From Acidobacteria bacterium RIFCSPLOWO2_02_FULL_67_21 (GTDB taxonomy: Bacteria > Acidobacteriota > Vicinamibacteria > Vicinamibacterales > UBA2999): a stretch of 34,458 nucleotides of DNA. The stretch is from NCBI GenBank assembly GCA_001767195.1, contig MEKU01000004.1, positions 24,736 to 59,193 of the forward strand, given 5' to 3'. This document shows, in pieces, positions 903 through 32,564 of the stretch. Within the stretch, counting starts at the first letter, position 1; every line of letters begins with the position of its first letter. The notes beneath the pieces are model-generated. The model ran no database searches, was not told the origin of the DNA, and worked only from the letters and a program-made list of their open reading frames with translations. A program made the position numbers and the translations under genes.

Positions 903-923
903 TTATGCGTGAACTCAATTCTC

Positions 924-973
924 TTGCCCCCTTCTCCCCTCGCCCCCTTGCCCCCTTGCCCCCTCGCCCCCTT
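924..973. repeat. C-rich low-complexity repeat (CCCCCTTG/CCCCCTCG units); G-rich on minus strand
   Basis: cttgcccccttctcccctcgcccccttgcccccttgccccctcgccccc directly read, in the 903-987 divergent intergenic region. Confidence 0.85.
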
Positions 974-987
974 CGCGCGGAGCTCCC

Positions 988-2493: not shown

Positions 2494-2503
2494 CGTCGCC
2501 GGG

Positions 2504-2582
2504 GCTCGGCTGAAGCCGAGCACTACGTACGCGTGCGGTACGGAGTACGCGGGCAGTACGTAGTGCCCGGCTTCAGCCGGGC
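2504..2582. repeat. Paired inverted GTAG-type REP elements
   Basis: Minus copy 2504-2526 (GTAGTGCTCGGCTTCAGCCGAGC), plus copy 2560-2582 (GTAGTGCCCGGCTTCAGCCGGGC). Confidence 0.85.
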
Positions 2583-2585
2583 CCG

Positions 2586-3116
2586 TTACGGCCGCTGACT
2601 GGCCGGCGGCACCAGGCCGTTCAGACGCAGGTACACCACCATCTGGCCGTAGATGTCCTGCGAGTGCGCGATGGCGAAATACGCAATGCGCGCGCGCGTC
2701 GCCTGGCCCATGAAGCGCGGCCCCATCACCGCCTCCGCCAGCTGCTGATCGCTGAACTCCTTGAGCGCCGCGGCGCCGAAGTCGAACGACTGCTCGAGCG
2801 CCCGCAGCGCGCCGGCCTTGTCGGTCGCCTTGGTATTGACCGCGGGGGCCGTCGTCTTGGCACCCAGCGTGCCGAGCAGCCCGAGGTTCACCCCGGCGAC
2901 GTGCGTGATCTGCTCCGCATAGCTGCGCTGGGCCGGGGTCGCCTTGAAGCCGAACTTGTCCTCCGGCATCTCGGCGGCAATCTTCATCATGAGATCCTTC
3001 TGCGCCGCCCAGTCCTTCTGGAGGTCGCCGGCCAGCGTGACGCCCTGAGCGGACGGCCGCGCGAGCGACGCAAGGACCAAGGCCACACCGAACAACATCC
3101 GACATCCAAGCTTCAT
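2586..3116 (-). CDS. secreted DinB-superfamily protein
   Basis: MKLGCRMLFGVALVLASLARPSAQG signal peptide; DinB-like helices ending HSQDIYGQMVVYLRLNGLVPP; GGAGG Shine-Dalgarno upstream of the 3116 ATG. Confidence 0.8.
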   Translation of the reverse strand: MKLGCRMLFGVALVLASLARPSAQGVTLAGDLQKDWAAQKDLMMKIAAEMPEDKFGFKATPAQRSYAEQITHVAGVNLGLLGTLGAKTTAPAVNTKATDKAGALRALEQSFDFGAAALKEFSDQQLAEAVMGPRFMGQATRARIAYFAIAHSQDIYGQMVVYLRLNGLVPPASQRP

Positions 3117-3239: not shown

Positions 3240-4091
3240 ATGACACATGTGTTCCACCCCACGGATTTTTCCCCGGCAAGCGATGTGGCGTTCGCCCACG
3301 CGCTCAAGCTGGCGCTCGTCAGCGTCGGGGCGCTGACGGTCTTTCACTACGCGCACCGCGACGAGGCGGAGCAGGAGCAGCATGAATTTCCAGCCGTCCG
3401 CGACACGCTGACGCAGTGGGGCCTGCTGCCGCCGGACAGCCCGCGGACCGCCGTGGGGGCGACGCTCGGGATTCACGTCCGCAAGGTGGCCATTGGCGGG
3501 GACGACCCCATCGACGCGATCTCGAGCTACATCGACAGGCACCCGGCTGACCTGATTGTGCTCGCCACGCATCAGCGAAGCGGCGTCGCCCGCTGGCTGT
3601 ACCGCGAGGTGGCGGCGCCGCTCGCGCGCCGCCTCCAGGTGCCGGCGCTCTTCGTCCCTCCAGACGTGGACGGATTCGTGGACATCAAGACCGGCACCGT
3701 GCGCCTGCGCCGCATCGTCGTCCCGGTCGACAGGCACCCGAACCCCGGCACCGTGATCGACGCGCTGCCCGGATTCATCGCTTCGCTCTCGGCCGGCCCG
3801 GTCAGCGTGGACCTCGTGCACGTCGGCACCGCCGCGACGATGCCGCATCTCCGCCTTCCGGAGGAGGGCGGCAACATCACCTGGACGACGCGCGTGGCGG
3901 AGGGACCGGTGCTGGAGGAGATCCTGCGCTCCGCGGCGGTACCGCCGGCGGATCTGGTGGTGATGTCTACCGAAGGCCGCCGCGGCTTCCTGGACGCCCT
4001 GCGCGGCAGCACGACCGAGCAGGTCGTGCGGACGGCGGGCTGTCCGGTGCTCGCGATCCCGGCGGCCGCGGTGGAAGCCGCTCCTGTGTGA
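3240..4091 (+). CDS. tandem universal stress protein (two Usp domains)
   Basis: ILIPTDFS-like VFHPTDFSPAS start; LIVLATHQRSGVARWLYREVAAPLAR and second-domain LVVMSTEGRRGFLDALRGSTTEQVVRTAGCPVL. Confidence 0.88.
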   Translation: MTHVFHPTDFSPASDVAFAHALKLALVSVGALTVFHYAHRDEAEQEQHEFPAVRDTLTQWGLLPPDSPRTAVGATLGIHVRKVAIGGDDPIDAISSYIDRHPADLIVLATHQRSGVARWLYREVAAPLARRLQVPALFVPPDVDGFVDIKTGTVRLRRIVVPVDRHPNPGTVIDALPGFIASLSAGPVSVDLVHVGTAATMPHLRLPEEGGNITWTTRVAEGPVLEEILRSAAVPPADLVVMSTEGRRGFLDALRGSTTEQVVRTAGCPVLAIPAAAVEAAPV

Positions 4092-4107: not shown

Positions 4108-4176
4108 GCCACAGAGTCACAGAGACACAGAGAAAAATTGGACTCAAGAATCTCTGTGGCTCTGTGTCTCTGTGGC
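4108..4176. repeat. CACAGAG-type imperfect palindrome (family B)
   Basis: GCCACAGAGTCACAGAGACACAGAGA...TCTCTGTGGCTCTGTGTCTCTGTGGC, between convergent genes. Confidence 0.85.
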
Positions 4177-4190
4177 CCGTCACGTTTTGA

Positions 4191-5369
4191 CTACGGGCGC
4201 GGGGGCGGCAGCAGTGCGCCCCTCGGCGCGCCCATGCCCTTGACGACGAACCGCTGGAACCGCCGGCCGTCAAAGTTCTCGCCCACGTAGAGGTTCCCGC
4301 GGCTGTCGGCCGCCAGCGCGTGCGGCACGTTCAGGAACCCGCCGAAGATCCCCTGCTGGCCGATGCGGTCGACCACCTCCAGCGTGTCGCGGCGGAGGAT
4401 CCAGACGTGATGGTTGGCGCCGTCGATCACGTACAGGAAGCGCTGGTCGGGCGAGAAGGCGAGCCCTGACGCGGCGCCGGCCAGCAGCGTCCTCCGCGCG
4501 ATGAACCCCTCGCGTACGAACGCGCCGTCGGTCTTGAAGACCTGAATGCGGTTGTTCGGGCGATCGGCGACGTACACGAATCCGTCCTTCGAGACCGCCA
4601 CATTGTGGGGCAGCCGGAATTGCCGGGCCGGGGGTGCATCCGGATTGTAGGGACCCAGGTCGGTGTCGTCCGGCGCGTTGCCGTACGCGCCCCAGAGACG
4701 TTTGACGGCCAGCGTGTCGATGTCGAGCACGATCACGCGGCGGTTCCGGTAGCCGTCGGCGACGTAGAGCTCGTTGGCGGCGGGATCGACCGTCAGATTC
4801 GCCGGGCCGCCGAGATTCTCGCGATCGGCGCTCCCCTTGCCGCGGCCCTGTCGCCCGAACTGCGCGAGGAACCTGCCCTGCCGGGTGAACTTGAGGACAT
4901 GGGCGTCTTTCGCGCCGCTGCCGCCGATCCAGACGTTGTCCTTGTGGTCCACGACGATGCCATGTTCGATCTGCGGCCATTCGTAGCCGTCGCCCGGGCC
5001 GCCCCACGACGCGACGAGCGTGCCGGCCTGATCGAACTCGAGCACGGGCGGCGCCGGGATGCAGCAGTCCGCTTTCGGCGGCGTGTCGTCCGCTCCAGCG
5101 AACCGTTCGTTCGCCTGCAGCGGGGCAGGCCGATGCAGCACCCAGATGTGATCGCGGCCGTCGACGGCCATCCCGCCGATGGCGCCGATCGCCCACTGCG
5201 CGGGCAGCGGCTGCGGAAACGTCGGGTCGTACTGGAACGTCGGCACGCTCGCGCGTGATGGCGCCTGCGTGAAGAGAACCGCCTGCGATGCGATCGCCGC
5301 CGCCGCGATCGTCACCGCTCGAAGCACACGGGATCGGGGCATCATCCGTCTCCTTGTCTGCCGGCTCAT
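4191..5369 (-). CDS. secreted NHL-repeat / peptidyl-alpha-hydroxyglycine lyase-like beta-propeller
   Basis: NHL repeats (LYVADGYRNRRVIVLD, FVYVADRPNNRIQVF, LYVIDGANHHVWIL); N-terminal signal. True start may be at about 5345-5348. Confidence 0.85.
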   Translation of the reverse strand: MSRQTRRRMMPRSRVLRAVTIAAAAIASQAVLFTQAPSRASVPTFQYDPTFPQPLPAQWAIGAIGGMAVDGRDHIWVLHRPAPLQANERFAGADDTPPKADCCIPAPPVLEFDQAGTLVASWGGPGDGYEWPQIEHGIVVDHKDNVWIGGSGAKDAHVLKFTRQGRFLAQFGRQGRGKGSADRENLGGPANLTVDPAANELYVADGYRNRRVIVLDIDTLAVKRLWGAYGNAPDDTDLGPYNPDAPPARQFRLPHNVAVSKDGFVYVADRPNNRIQVFKTDGAFVREGFIARRTLLAGAASGLAFSPDQRFLYVIDGANHHVWILRRDTLEVVDRIGQQGIFGGFLNVPHALAADSRGNLYVGENFDGRRFQRFVVKGMGAPRGALLPPPRP

Positions 5370-5841: not shown

Positions 5842-5860
5842 CGATGCCTCCAGGGCAGGA

Positions 5861-5883
5861 GCCCGGCTAAAGCCGGGCACTAC
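5861..5883 (-). repeat. GTAG-type REP element
   Basis: GCCCGGCTAAAGCCGGGCACTAC (reverse GTAGTGCCCGGCTTTAGCCGGGC). Confidence 0.85.
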
Positions 5884-5918
5884 GGTATCGAAGCCGGTGT
5901 GCGGGAGTTTATGCTTAG

Positions 5919-9849: not shown

Positions 9850-9855
9850 ACCAGC

Positions 9856-9897
9856 GTAGTGCCCGGCTTCAGCCGGGCTGAAGCCCGGCGCCACGTA
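9856..9897. repeat. GTAG-type REP (three-arm form)
   Basis: GTAGTGCCCGGCTTCAGCCGGGCTGAAGCCCGGCGCCACGTAC between convergent stops. Confidence 0.85.
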
Positions 9898-9904
9898 CGA
9901 AACG

Positions 9905-14285: not shown

Positions 14286-15553
14286 GGCGCAGTGCCCGGG
14301 GCGGCCAGCCCGCTGCGGGCCAGGAGCATCCGGATCTCCGCTGCCGCGTCGCGCAGCGCGGTGGCCGGCGTCTCTTGGCCGCTCAGCGCGCGATGGAGGT
14401 GCACCTGCAGGATCTCGGACAGCTCGCTGTAGACGGGCGTCACTGGCCGCGGCCGCGCCGCGGCCAGTGCGGCCCGCACCTGGTCGAGGGGGAGCGGCAG
14501 GGCGTCGGCCAGTGCCGGAGCCTCGTAGAGCGACTGCCGCGCGGGGAGCTGGCTGACGAATCGGGCGCGTTCGAGCATCTGCTCGGGAGCCGTGAGGAAT
14601 GCGACCAGATCGCGCGCGAGCGAGGGGTTCGCGCTGTGCGCGTTCACGGCGAGCTGCGCCCCGCCGAGGGCTGCCGTGATCTCTCCTCCGGCGGCCGAAG
14701 GGAATGGCGCAATGGAGTACCGGCCCGCCACGCGGGAACGCGCCGAGTCCGCCAGCAAGGTCCAGGCATAGGGCCAGTTGCGCATGAACATCGCGTCACC
14801 ATTCTGAAACGCGAACCGCACCTGTTCTTCCTGCCACGTCAGCGCCGACGGCGGGACGAACCCCCGGGGGCCGAGCGCATCGCGCATGAAGGTGAGCGCC
14901 CTCACGGCGGCCGGCTCGTCGACGGTGACACGGCCGTCGGGTGCGAGTATGCGGCCGCCGAACGCGCCGAGGTGTTCGAGAAAGACGGTCACCAGCCCTT
15001 CGTAGCGCGCTCCCTGCCAGACGAGCCCGAAGGGCACGGCGCCGGTGCTGACGGCGTGGCGCGCCGCGTCACCCAGCTCAGGCAGCGATCGCGGCGCCTC
15101 AGGCAGCAGATCGGTCCGCCAGTAGAGCAGGCCGACGTCGACAAACCAGGGCGCCGCGTACAGCCCGCCGTTCCACTGCGCGGCCGCGAGGGCCGCCGGG
15201 AGAAAGTCGCCGACGTCGGGCAGCGCGTCATCGAGCGACATGATCCAGCCCGCGGCGGCGAACTCGGCCGTCCAGATCACATCGAGCTGCAGGACATCGG
15301 GGTGCCGTACGCGCGCGTTGAGCCACTGAACGTACAGCTGGTGGCGCTGGTCGGCCGCATCGGGCGTCACCCGAAGCTCGACGCGGACGCCGGGGTGCCG
15401 CTCCTCGAATCGCGCGAGCTGACTGCGCACGAGGGTGCCTTCGGTCCCGAGGGCGCTGCCCGAGAACGTCAGCGGCTCGGGCCCCTCTGGGAGACTGCAC
15501 GCCGCGCCTGCGCACGCGAGGAGCAGAAGCAGCCGCACCGATCGCGAGGACAT
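14282..15553 (-). CDS. extracellular solute-binding lipoprotein of the ABC transporter
   Basis: Signal and lipobox LLACAGAAC; family-1 solute-binding features (FEERHPGVRVELRVTPDAADQRHQLYVQWLNA); operon with permeases. Confidence 0.93.
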   Translation of the reverse strand: MSSRSVRLLLLLACAGAACSLPEGPEPLTFSGSALGTEGTLVRSQLARFEERHPGVRVELRVTPDAADQRHQLYVQWLNARVRHPDVLQLDVIWTAEFAAAGWIMSLDDALPDVGDFLPAALAAAQWNGGLYAAPWFVDVGLLYWRTDLLPEAPRSLPELGDAARHAVSTGAVPFGLVWQGARYEGLVTVFLEHLGAFGGRILAPDGRVTVDEPAAVRALTFMRDALGPRGFVPPSALTWQEEQVRFAFQNGDAMFMRNWPYAWTLLADSARSRVAGRYSIAPFPSAAGGEITAALGGAQLAVNAHSANPSLARDLVAFLTAPEQMLERARFVSQLPARQSLYEAPALADALPLPLDQVRAALAAARPRPVTPVYSELSEILQVHLHRALSGQETPATALRDAAAEIRMLLARSGLAAPGTAP

Positions 15554-18515: not shown

Positions 18516-18528
18516 ACCGTTGTGTCTC

Positions 18529-18573
18529 GTAGTGCCCGGCTTCAGCCGGGCTGAAGCCGGGCGCCACGTACGA
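18529..18573. repeat. GTAG-type REP (three-arm form)
   Basis: GTAGTGCCCGGCTTCAGCCGGGCTGAAGCCGGGCGCCACGTACGA. Confidence 0.85.
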
Positions 18574-24666: not shown

Positions 24667-24758
24667 CGTGAGGGAAGCTCTCGATGACCGAAACCGGCTG
24701 ACCCGTCGTATACTCCCTCAGCTGCGGTCAGAGACTGTAGGAGCCGTTTCATGCACTC

Positions 24759-24849
24759 GTAGTGCCCGGCTGTAGCCGGGCTGACCACCTTCGCCAAGGC
24801 TACGGTGGTCCGCCGAAGCTTCACGCGAAGGCGGAAGCCCGGCACTACG
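24759..24849. repeat. composite (nested) repeat: REP ends flanking a second palindromic module
   Basis: GTAGTGCCCGGCTGTAGCCGGGC ... AAGCCCGGCACTACG bracketing GACCACCTTCGCCAAGGCTACGGTGGTCCGCCGAAGCTTCACGCGAAGGCGGA. Confidence 0.8.
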
Positions 24850-24859
24850 TTGCGAATTA

Positions 24860-27013
<2,154 letters not shown>

Positions 27014-27015
27014 AC

Positions 27016-27474
27016 GTGAAAACAGACACCCGAGACGGGCCACAGAGGCACAGAGGCACAGAGAAAATCTGGCTCTGTGTCTCGGTGTCTCTGTGGCTTC
27101 TGATCGGCACCGTGGCGATCGGTCAAACCGTGTGGGACGGCGTGTACACCGAGGCCCAGGCCACGCGCGGAGAGGCGACCTACAACGAGCGCTGCTCGGC
27201 CTGCCACGGCACGGAGCTCGAAGGGGGCGACATGACGCCGGGATTGACGACCGGCATGTTCACGTCGAACTGGAACGAGTTGACCGTCGGCGATCTGTTC
27301 GAGCGTATCCGCATTACGATGCCCCTTGACAATCCCAGTTCGCTGTCGCGCCAGCAGGTGGCCGACGTCGTCGCCTTCCTTCTCAAGGCCAACAAGTGGC
27401 CGGCGGGGGAGAGCGAACTGCCGCGCGAGACGTTCGCGCTCAAAGAAATTAAGATTCTGAGCCTCAAGCCGTAG
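27016..27474 (+). CDS. c-type cytochrome, probably co-translated with the PQQ dehydrogenase
   Basis: GTG at 27016, 2 nt after the upstream stop; 152 aa; CSACH heme motif; ...SLSRQQVADVVAFLLKANKWPAGE. Confidence 0.85.
   Translation: MKTDTRDGPQRHRGTEKIWLCVSVSLWLLIGTVAIGQTVWDGVYTEAQATRGEATYNERCSACHGTELEGGDMTPGLTTGMFTSNWNELTVGDLFERIRITMPLDNPSSLSRQQVADVVAFLLKANKWPAGESELPRETFALKEIKILSLKP
27039..27097. repeat. CACAGAG-type imperfect palindrome (family B), inside the cytochrome coding region
   Basis: GCCACAGAGGCACAGAGGCACAGAGA...GGCTCTGTGTCTCGGTGTCTCTGTGGC. Confidence 0.85.
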
Positions 27475-27518: not shown

Positions 27519-30417
27519 ATGAAGTCGATTATTCGATTCGTTGTCCAGATCGCACTGCTCACCGCCGTGCTCGCGGGGCTGCCAGCGGCCGGCTACGCGC
27601 AGGAAGCCACGATGAGCGGCACCGTGAGCGATTCAACCGGCGGCGTGCTGCCGGGGGTTACCATCACGGCCGTGCACGAGGCGTCCGGCAATACCTTCGA
27701 AACGGCGACCGATGAGCGCGGAATCTACCGGATTCCGCTCCGCATTGGCGGGTATCGCGTGACCGCCGCGCTCGCAGGCTTCGCGACCGTGACGCGCACC
27801 GGGCTCGAAGTCCTCGTAGGGCAGCAGACGACGGTGAACCTGCAGATGGCCCCCTCGTCGCTGCAGGAATCGGTGACGGTGACGGCCGAAGCGCCGCTGG
27901 TGGACGTGTCGCAGTCGCGCGCGAGCGGTAACGTCGGCTCACGCCAGATGTGAGGAGCTGCCGGTGAACGGCCGCAACTGGCAGGATCTGGCGCTGCTCG
28001 CGCCTGGCGCGCGGGTGAATGCGGTCGTGCAGGTGGCCGTGTCCGGCAACGGCATGCAGGGCAACTACCACGTCAACCTGGACGGCCAGCAGGTGACCCA
28101 GAACACCGGCGGCGGGCTCGGTGCCTTCGGGCAGCCCCGGTTCAGCCGCGATTCGATCGCGGAGTTCGAGTTCGTCGCCAACCGGTTCGACGCCACGCAG
28201 GGCCGGTCGGCCGGCGTGCAGGTGAACGCCATCACGAAGTCGGGCACGAACGCGTTTGCCGGAACGGCATCCGGGTACTTCCGGGACGATCGGTTCAGGG
28301 CTGAAGACTTCATCCAGCGCCGCGTGCTGCCGTATTCGGACCAGCAGTACAGTTTCACCGGCGGCGGGCCGATCGTCCGCGACAAGTTTCATTTCTTCGC
28401 CAACTACGAGTACGAGCGCGAGCCGCAGACGCTCACCTCGTCCAGCCCGTTTCCGAGCTTCAACATCGATCTGAGCAGCGTGAGGACGGTCGATCTGAGC
28501 GGCCTGCGGCTCGACAACCAGTTCTCGCCGCGTATGCGCTATTCCATGCGTGCGTCCCACTACGAGGAAGTGATTCCCAACGAGAGCGCCGGCGGGGCGG
28601 TGCGTCATCCGTCGACCGGCCTGATGCGGAAGCTGTCGGGCGATCAGATCATCAACACGTTCACGCAGGTGCTCAGCAACCGGTCCGTGAACGAACTCCG
28701 GGCGGGGTGGCTTGGCTACACGTGGCGCCTGGAAACCATGCTCGACGTGCCGAACCCCATCTATCAGGTGCCCGGCCTGGAAGACCAGGTCGGCCCACCC
28801 GTGATTCAGCTGCGCGGCTACACGATCGGCGGCGGCAATGCGAACACGCCGGAGCGGATGGGGAACAACACCTGGTCGATTCGCGACGACTTCACGCGAT
28901 CCTTCGATCTCGGCGGACGCATGGACGTGAAGCTCGGCGGCGAGTACCTGTTCGTCGATCACTATATCTATCTGTGCCGGTTCTGCATGGGCGTACTCGA
29001 CGTCCAGAACGGTCCGATTCCGGCCAACATCGAGTCGCTGTTCCCGGTGTGGAACGATCCCTCCACGTGGAACATCAACGCGCTGTCGCCCCTCTCCCGC
29101 CGGTTCCAGATGGGGATCGGTAACTTCCAGTTCTACCCGCCACGGCACGTAGGCGCGTTCTGGGTGCAGGACGACTGGGCGATCTCACCGAAGGTGACGC
29201 TGAATCTCGGCGTCCGTTACGACGTCGCAAAGGGCATCTGGGGCGAGGATTACGAACTGCTGCCATTTGTGAAGAAAGGCGCTCCGATCGACAAGAACAA
29301 CATCGGTCCGCGCGTCGGCATGGCGTACAGCCTGGACGATCGCACCGTCATTCGCGGCGGCTGGGGCAAGTACTTCGGCGACATGAGCGACCAGCCGACC
29401 CACGGCCTCGTGGGCTATGTCGAGAGCTTCGTGCCCGAAGTGAATTACGACCGCCGGGCCGACTTCGCGATCAATCCCTTCAACGGTCCGACACCGAGCT
29501 ACCAGGAGATCGCGCAACGGCAGTGCCCGGTGAACCCGGCGCCGAACTGCGTGCGCCAGAACCTGCTGTCGCACATGGTCGGGCCGGTCAACGAAACGAC
29601 CTACAGCTATCAGACGTCGATTGGCGTGCAGCGTCAGCTCGCCGCGTCGATGGCGGTCGAGGCGGACTACGTCTCCACCCGGAGTCGCGCGGAGGTCTAC
29701 ACGCACAATATCAATCTGAGCTACAACCCCGCGACCGGTGTGAACTATCCGTTCACCGACATCAGCCGGCGTCCCTTCCCCGACTGGGGCGTCGTGGAGC
29801 CGTACTATCCGGACGGCTGGACGAACTACCAGGCACTGCAGATGGCGTTCTCGAAGCGCTTCAGCAACCGCTGGCAGGCGTCGGCCACCTACCTCCTGTC
29901 GTCCACGAAGGACGGCACGCCGCCTCCCCGCACAGGCCTGTACGATGTTGTGACGTTCCCGGTAGCGGAGGACCTGGGCGGTGAGTACACCTACGCCGGC
30001 TCCGATCAGCGGCACCGGGCCGTCTTCAACGGCATCTGGGACATGGGATACGGCTTCCAACTGAGCGGCGTCTACTTCTACGGCTCCGGTCTCCGTTACG
30101 GAACGACATACGGCGGCGACCTCCGCGCCTACGGGACCGGACGTGGTGCCCGTCTGCGCCCGAACGGGACGATCGTGCCGCGGAATGATCTTGTCGGCGA
30201 GCCGAACCATCGCATGGACATGCGGGTGCAGCGGCGCTTCGGTATCCGCCGCGTGCGGGTCGACGGGATTCTCGAAGTGTTCAACGTGTTCAACCGTGAG
30301 AACTATGGCTCGTACACGACGCAGGAGAGCAGTGCCAGCTACGGGCGCCCCTCGCAGAATCTGAACGTGGCGTACCAGCCGCGGATGCTGCAGCTCGGTT
30401 TCCGTGTGGCGTTCTGA
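27519..30417 (+). pseudogene. Oar-like TonB-dependent receptor with CarboxypepD_reg domain, interrupted by a single-base frameshift at 27951
   Basis: 27519-27953 encodes signal, CarboxypepD_reg and plug start (...SRASGNVGSRQM*); 27964-30417 continues NGRNWQDLALLAPGARVN... to ...NLNVAYQPRMLQLGFRVAF. Removing one T at 27951 restores RQMEELPVNGRNWQDL. Confidence 0.85.
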
Positions 30418-32383: not shown

Positions 32384-32423
32384 GTAGTGCCCGGCTTTAA
32401 GCCGGGCTGAAGCCCGGCACTAC
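32384..32423. repeat. GTAG-type REP (complete inverted pair)
   Basis: GTAGTGCCCGGCTTTAAGCCGGGCTGAAGCCCGGCACTAC. Confidence 0.88.
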
Positions 32424-32564
32424 GTACGAACTCACGCGGCTGGATCCAAGGCAAATAACGACTCGGTTCGGACACGAGCGGACTTGAGCGGTCGCGGACC
32501 CTCTGGAACGAAAATCGCTATAGCAAAGCGTGAAAAACCACCCTATATTGTGGTCGCGCGAGCT

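Follow-up and report, generated by a model that had tools for sequence, protein, structure and literature searches.

The window analysed here, a stretch of 34,458 nucleotides from Acidobacteria bacterium RIFCSPLOWO2_02_FULL_67_21 (assembly GCA_001767195.1, contig MEKU01000004.1), contains a gene pair encoding a pyrroloquinoline quinone (PQQ)-dependent dehydrogenase and a c-type cytochrome, and a palindromic repeat, the CACAGAG repeat, lies in frame at the 5' end of the cytochrome gene. An earlier reading of this DNA, made from its letters alone (hereafter, the sequence-only reading), had proposed that insertion of the repeat at the gene junction created or replaced the export signal of the cytochrome. 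The relevant features are the following (bit scores refer to R1, a covariance model of the repeat):

24860..27013, plus strand: PQQ-dependent dehydrogenase, a quinoprotein beta-propeller, the upstream gene (PF01011, E 4.7e-173)
27016..27474, plus strand: c-type cytochrome gene, 152 aa, with GTG start, CSACH haem motif and stop codon TAG 27472-27474
27016..27123, plus strand: coding region of the predicted signal peptide MKTDTRDGPQRHRGTEKIWLCVSVSLWLLIGTVAIG (from composition and hydropathy)
27039..27097, no strand: CACAGAG palindromic repeat element, in frame, coding for P9-W27 (72.6 bits)
4108..4176, no strand: second full CACAGAG copy, in a spacer (87 bits)

The dehydrogenase also matches the TIGR03074 profile, with a score under the cutoff of that profile. 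Two bases past its stop codon (TAG, 27011-27013, correctly located by the sequence-only reading), the cytochrome frame opens with GTG 27016; its product contains the Pfam domains PF13442 (E 3.7e-10) and PF00034 (E 2.6e-7), with the CxxCH haem site present as CSACH within the cytochrome c domain. The precursor begins with MKTDTRDGPQRHRGTEKIWLCVSVSLWLLIGTVAIGQTVWDG, residues 9-27 of which are encoded by the repeat. This N-terminus reads MKTDTRDG-PQRHRGTEKIWLCVSVSLW-LLIGTVAIGQTVWDG, and the palindrome, at exactly the coordinates given previously, codes for the later n-region and then for the front half of the hydrophobic core (P9-W27 behind GTG 27016); the second half, LLIGTVAIGQ, is non-repeat sequence. 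By our own metric, the layout is of the Sec type (net charge +2 ahead of the core; 12-residue hydropathy peaking at 2.32 at residue 24), and inspection suggests a candidate cleavage site, AIG/QTVWDG, with small residues at -3 and -1 (A-I-G/Q). Apart from GTG 27016, in-frame starts are found at 27085, within the repeat, and at 27112, 27130 and 27142, 3' of the repeat, and these last three give no signal peptide. The first in-frame start upstream is GTG 26650, deep within the dehydrogenase gene, where the codon score is anti-coding. Therefore, as had been claimed, no repeat-free start would yield an export signal.

The palindrome at 27039-27097 comprises three 8-nt units in each arm (CACAGAGN, CTCTGTGN) and a 9-nt loop, and its left flank, GACGGG at 27034-27039, agrees with the terminus of the family. 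Exact CACAGAG/CTCTGTG units number five in this element and six in the copy at 4108-4176, which is located between a stress-protein gene (ending at 4091) and an NHL-repeat gene (4191-5369, minus strand). Across the window, 12 unit matches were observed against 3.4 expected, a number reached by none of 100 shuffles. As RNA, the palindrome at 27039-27097 would form a hairpin of -51.9 kcal/mol (z -8.0 against shuffles) that begins about 15-20 nt past GTG 27016 and leaves this codon outside the main stem; an action of the hairpin in the mRNA start region of the cytochrome is only plausible. Several 8-mers resembling CCCTTGCC were also noticed in a short tandem arrangement at window positions 921-977.

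The second copy reported by the sequence-only reading is thus genuine, but the notion of a two-copy repeat has to be abandoned. In this genome (G000, a 4.19 Mb draft, of which the stretches around repeats were used), a pattern search allowing at most one mismatch gave 108 + 102 matches, and R1 identified about 51 distinct places at E<=1 (102 hits on both strands), half elements besides. The model also reaches 26 of the 43 genomes of the family and 46 of the 149 genomes sampled across the phylum. With this spread, the element is a dispersed palindromic repeat resembling repetitive extragenic palindromes (REPs) or miniature inverted-repeat transposable elements, the copies of which are mostly outside genes, many of them in intergenic regions. 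Both ends follow the consensus CTCTGTGGC(C/T)CGT(G/C), and no GTAG tag was found at the CACAGAG termini, which separates the family from the GTAG REPs associated with REP-associated tyrosine transposases (RAYTs). A distinct second family, CACGAAG, unrelated to the first and built of 9-nt units (CACGAAGNN), is present in 27 of the 43 genomes, including G000. Comparison of the repeat with Rfam returned only sub-threshold microRNA hairpins, judged to be chance matches, and none of the papers searched contains the CACAGAG units. The same genome also carries a separate GTAG-tagged REP, CGTAGTGCCCGGCTTCAGCCGGGC, at window positions 2502-2604, 5853-5888, 9855-9900, 18528-18573, 24758-24853 and 32384-32429, and on contig C10 a Y1 (RAYT-like) transposase gene (14767-15093, L389) has copies of this REP on its flanks. 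Mobilization of the CACAGAG element by this RAYT is unsupported, given that the flanking repeats are GTAG REPs and not CACAGAG.

Alignment of the orthologous junction, the check put forward by the sequence-only reading, in G011 and G026, two species that share the family but belong to a different genus, supports replacement of the signal peptide. In both, the dehydrogenase gene adjoins the cytochrome gene; the dehydrogenases are 80% and 78% identical to that of G000, and the mature cytochromes match in 81/114 and 80/114 residues (70-71%), against only 8/28 and 5/38 residues for the signal peptides. The signal peptide of the G011 cytochrome, MTGTRARRVLGAWVVAAFAVVSFAAAAS, is a plain one, and its ATG overlaps the upstream stop, whereas in the G026 peptide, MNHEEHEGLEGIPGGRPHPLYLQAFVIFVAFVVSIVCVSLAVAAS, the first two thirds or more is a CACGAAG palindrome, a repeat present in about 30 copies in G026. 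Among ten further junctions from a named genome collection, examined by eye, no repeat-coded signal peptide was seen. The simplest history would be two independent takeovers of one junction by two different repeats.

The cytochrome is not a solitary case. We examined 197 repeat copies on both strands, namely, CACAGAG copies from G000 (58) and from other family genomes (48) and CACGAAG copies from G026 (31), along with an out-of-sample set of 60 CACGAAG copies fetched afterwards. In 34 genes of 11 genomes, the repeat codes for part or all of a predicted N-terminal export signal (hereafter, fusions): 8/58 and 12/48 for CACAGAG in G000 and elsewhere, and 3/31 and 11/60 for CACGAAG in G026 and out of sample, respectively. 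The fused proteins include cytochromes, solute-binding proteins, lipoproteins, barrels, SurA-like and M16 proteins. The eight G000 fusions are the window gene, the lipoproteins L208 and L235, the cytochromes c L209 and L240, the SurA-like L224, the barrel protein L251, with an assembly gap inside, and the M16 peptidase L253. Only the start or the n-region comes from the repeat in L208, L235, L391, L417 and L431; other repeat-coded N-termini are listed below:

L263: MRRATETQSHRVKLFVVVLCVSVSLWPVSAQ
L265, ankyrin protein: MRRATEAQRHRVRLCVSVTLCLCGLSLAAQ
L266, lipoprotein: MVKNLLCVSVTLWLVIVFAGC
L224, SurA-like: MIKRTLWLCVSVASFVVVDAS
L253, M16 peptidase: MRFSGRLCVSVALWLVFGGVIAGAQ
L404, solute-binding protein: MGVRPRRTRRSRRHAERVFAFFVPFVAIFVIFVSFVARASAQ
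L314, von Willebrand factor A (VWA) protein: MNHEGREEHEFRRGCVIFVIFVFFVVSASAQ

By hand classification, no N-terminal repeat fusion to a clearly cytosolic protein was found among the 197 copies. Many copies are located directly 5' of cytosolic genes, the starts of which lie 3' of the repeat; hence, L211 (guaB-like), L234 (accA-like) and L221 (NuoC-like; names by inspection) were not considered fusions, and L230, a cyclopropane-synthase-like methyltransferase with a possible start after the repeat, was left uncounted. In G000, the hand-assigned classes are 8 exported and 0 cytosolic for fused genes versus 3 and 13 for unfused ones (Fisher, p 2e-4). Under a criterion blind to signal peptides, the lack of any ATG/GTG/TTG within 15 codons past the repeat, ten genes were selected (L262, L263, L264, L314, L322, L404, L409, L423, L424 and L434), all ten with a strong hydrophobic core spanning the end of the repeat and most with Pfam domains of exported proteins; L409 is methyltransferase-like, and its location is unproven. 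L409 (G002) and L428 (G027) are the same gene, with a CACGAAG-derived hydrophobic N-terminus ending in VAAQ in both.

For other fused genes, relatives are informative as well. The signal peptides of 16 relatives of the M16 peptidase are not repeat-built, and the CTCTGTG arm is used in G000 only; the G009 relative carries a degenerate repeat further upstream, its signal peptide itself not being built from the repeat. The 5' region of the SurA-like gene contains repeat units in G000, G011, G026, G002, G009, G022, G027 and, weakly, G012, at differing distances and with different unit variants, and none in other genomes, a pattern that a single ancient insertion, since drifted, or several separate ones might produce. 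In the barrel protein gene, a run of N occurs within the CACAGAG palindrome (L251:2070-2092, G000:C19); its G002 homologue, L280, also has a repeat-coded signal peptide.

The suitability of the palindromes for this role appears to reside in their coding properties. In 40 full copies read in six frames, the mean Kyte-Doolittle hydropathy was -2.26 for the first 24 nt and +1.70 for the last 24 nt: the left arm codes for hydrophilic, often basic residues and the right arm for hydrophobic ones, because the reverse complement of an arm rich in charged and polar codons is rich in hydrophobic codons (L, C, V, F, S, W). Under a simple rule, 27% of the repeat readings were signal-peptide-like, compared to 2.5% of random window chunks and 4.3% of random palindromes. 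Shuffled palindromes with the real arm composition reach 22%, so that composition and palindromy do most of the work. With its 8-nt period, CACAGAG shows the polar/hydrophobic layout in all three frames; 9-nt-period CACGAAG shows it mainly in one, and its hydrophobic F-V frame is used in most of the fused cases. Both this coding rationale and the recurrence of the fusions go beyond the sequence-only reading, the interpretation of which, an export signal created or replaced by a repeat, is supported by the comparisons above.

Probably, a dispersed palindrome inserted at the junction now supplies much of the predicted Sec signal peptide of the cytochrome. The in-frame coding by a dispersed repeat, the plain or other-repeat peptides of the orthologues and the recurrence of such fusions are direct observations. 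As for the route, we infer that a presumably mobile repeat entered the dehydrogenase/cytochrome operon junction, where, translated in frame, it would contribute the later n-region and the front half of the core to a signal peptide that would direct export and be cleaved off. Read through, such an element would yield a hydrophilic, often basic stretch, a turn and a hydrophobic stretch, in the layout of a signal peptide. Selection may then act as a filter: insertions into most coding sequence would presumably be purged, and those at signal peptides, being tolerated or useful, would persist. Palindromes could settle there because only charge and hydrophobicity are needed and the peptide is cut off.

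Several points weigh against this interpretation. The signal-peptide core of the cytochrome is only moderately hydrophobic, holding S, W, C and T, the n-region is long (17 residues), and the export signal is predicted from composition and our hydropathy metric; in the G026 peptide, the n-region carries a net negative charge. No empty site was seen in a close species, and insertion into the cytochrome gene is therefore deduced from orthologues of 70% identity. Outside the blind criterion, the assignment to fused or unfused and to exported or cytosolic was made by hand, high-scoring model hits were the source of the sample from outside G000, G000 is in 107 contigs, and the barrel protein fusion contains an assembly gap.

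Among the other explanations, the one that fares best is that the palindrome is kept for a role in RNA or DNA, such as transcript stability or processing between operon genes, and that signal-peptide coding is a by-product of lack of space. The strong stem (-46 to -52 kcal/mol) and the intergenic position of many copies fit this account, and the hairpins of fused copies are not more eroded than others (median -45.9 vs -42.3 elsewhere, p 0.2). It leaves unexplained, however, why the observed N-terminal fusions are to exported proteins and why most in-gene CACGAAG copies use the hydrophobic frame, and we regard it as rather unlikely, although it is compatible with, and does not exclude, a repeat-derived signal peptide. 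Initiation within the repeat, at GTG 27085, would produce a shorter peptide, MSLWLLIGTVAIGQT..., with no charged n-region, the repeat then providing the start and half of the core. L240, which lacks any other canonical start in the vicinity, would likewise open with MSLWL, and for the lipoproteins L208, L235 and L266 a GTG start within the repeat appears the best choice. In the cytochrome, such initiation is improbable, as GTG 27085 is buried in the strong stem and the resulting peptide lacks positive charge, whereas GTG 27016 is outside the main stem, at a distance from the upstream stop that suits translational coupling.

Slightly less credible still is a start-codon artefact or a decayed gene, in which the repeat destroyed the signal peptide, the open frame is incidental and the cytochrome is no longer exported. 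About two thirds of the repeat readings (67% in the above six-frame analysis) are stop-free by nature, and several copies are located just 5' of genes whose start follows the repeat. Yet the mature cytochrome is intact, with its haem motif, full-length domain and a coding score of 46.8 over 125 codons; reading through the repeat places a basic part ahead of a hydrophobic one, the correct order; and the same pattern recurs in 33 other genes, including the ten with no start for 15 codons past the repeat. That signal peptides came first, with the repeats derived from or converging on these low-complexity, hydrophobic sequences, is extremely improbable considering that copies are mostly outside genes, that the palindromes have common nucleotide-level units and a terminal consensus, and that repeat-free orthologues carry unrelated signal peptides.

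Isolated precedents have been described. The signal peptide of Yersinia YPO1552 comes from RU-2/YPAL (Delihas 2007, PMC2759123; review PMC2229807), and RU-1, the ERIC element of enterobacteria, forms membrane fusions (PMC2759123; PMC2229807). As in the present case, the signal peptides of homologues elsewhere show no relation to the repeat. Those are single, mostly small or hypothetical proteins and elements of 127-168 bp, whereas here many conserved exported proteins and two unrelated short palindromes are involved, orthologous genes are repeatedly affected, and there is a palindrome-based reason. Rickettsia palindromic elements (RPEs) likewise occur in frame within conserved protein-coding genes (Ogata et al. 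2000, via PMC2229807, PMC10969869), but inside metabolic and other proteins, where they are kept as peptide inserts of 105-150 bp at the DNA level, whereas the present repeats are shorter, at about 60-80 bp, consist of 8- or 9-nt units and, when in genes, cluster at the predicted cleavable export signal. An in-frame CACAGAG copy between hydrophobic segments of an apparent integral membrane protein in G013 (L261:1521-1577; no Pfam match for the protein) may be an RPE-like insertion into the interior of a gene. GTAG- and CGTC-tagged REPs are short dispersed palindromes, some of them intragenic (PMC3733652); the CACAGAG termini are often CGTC or CGTG, but units repeated 2-3 times per arm and the lack of a GTAG tag and a flanked RAYT set the CACAGAG family apart. 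A study of how signal peptides are gained and lost in Enterobacterales dealt with the appearance of whole signal peptides at N-termini by insertion (PMC5952966). It was the only survey encountered that sought mobile DNA there, and it detected no transposable elements near these N-termini, whereas here the repeat source is visible. Compared with the isolated cases of YPO1552 and the RPEs, a recurrent repeat source of signal peptides looks new.

Downstream of the cytochrome gene, window positions 27519-27953 and 27964-30417 encode, in adjacent frames, a carboxypeptidase-regulatory domain with a signal peptide and what remains of a TonB-dependent outer-membrane barrel. The codon-model frames overlap between the two, which appear to be parts of a single receptor gene interrupted by a frameshift or an assembly error.

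Signal peptides change rapidly in evolution, and where they come from can seldom be seen. In this case, the donor sequence of an export signal can be seen, apparently twice independently on one gene, and a simple coding reason predicts which repeats can serve as signal peptides, which opens the question of where export signals come from to tests with sequence data and reporter fusions. A practical warning is that gene callers may trim repeat-coded starts. More broadly, with odds that we would put slightly above even, palindromes with one polar-coding arm may be ready-made signal peptides, such that repeats of this type, at least two families of which occur in Acidobacteriota, would recurrently replace or create export signals wherever they spread, sometimes independently on the same gene, and a fraction of the signal peptides of a genome would be of mobile-DNA origin.
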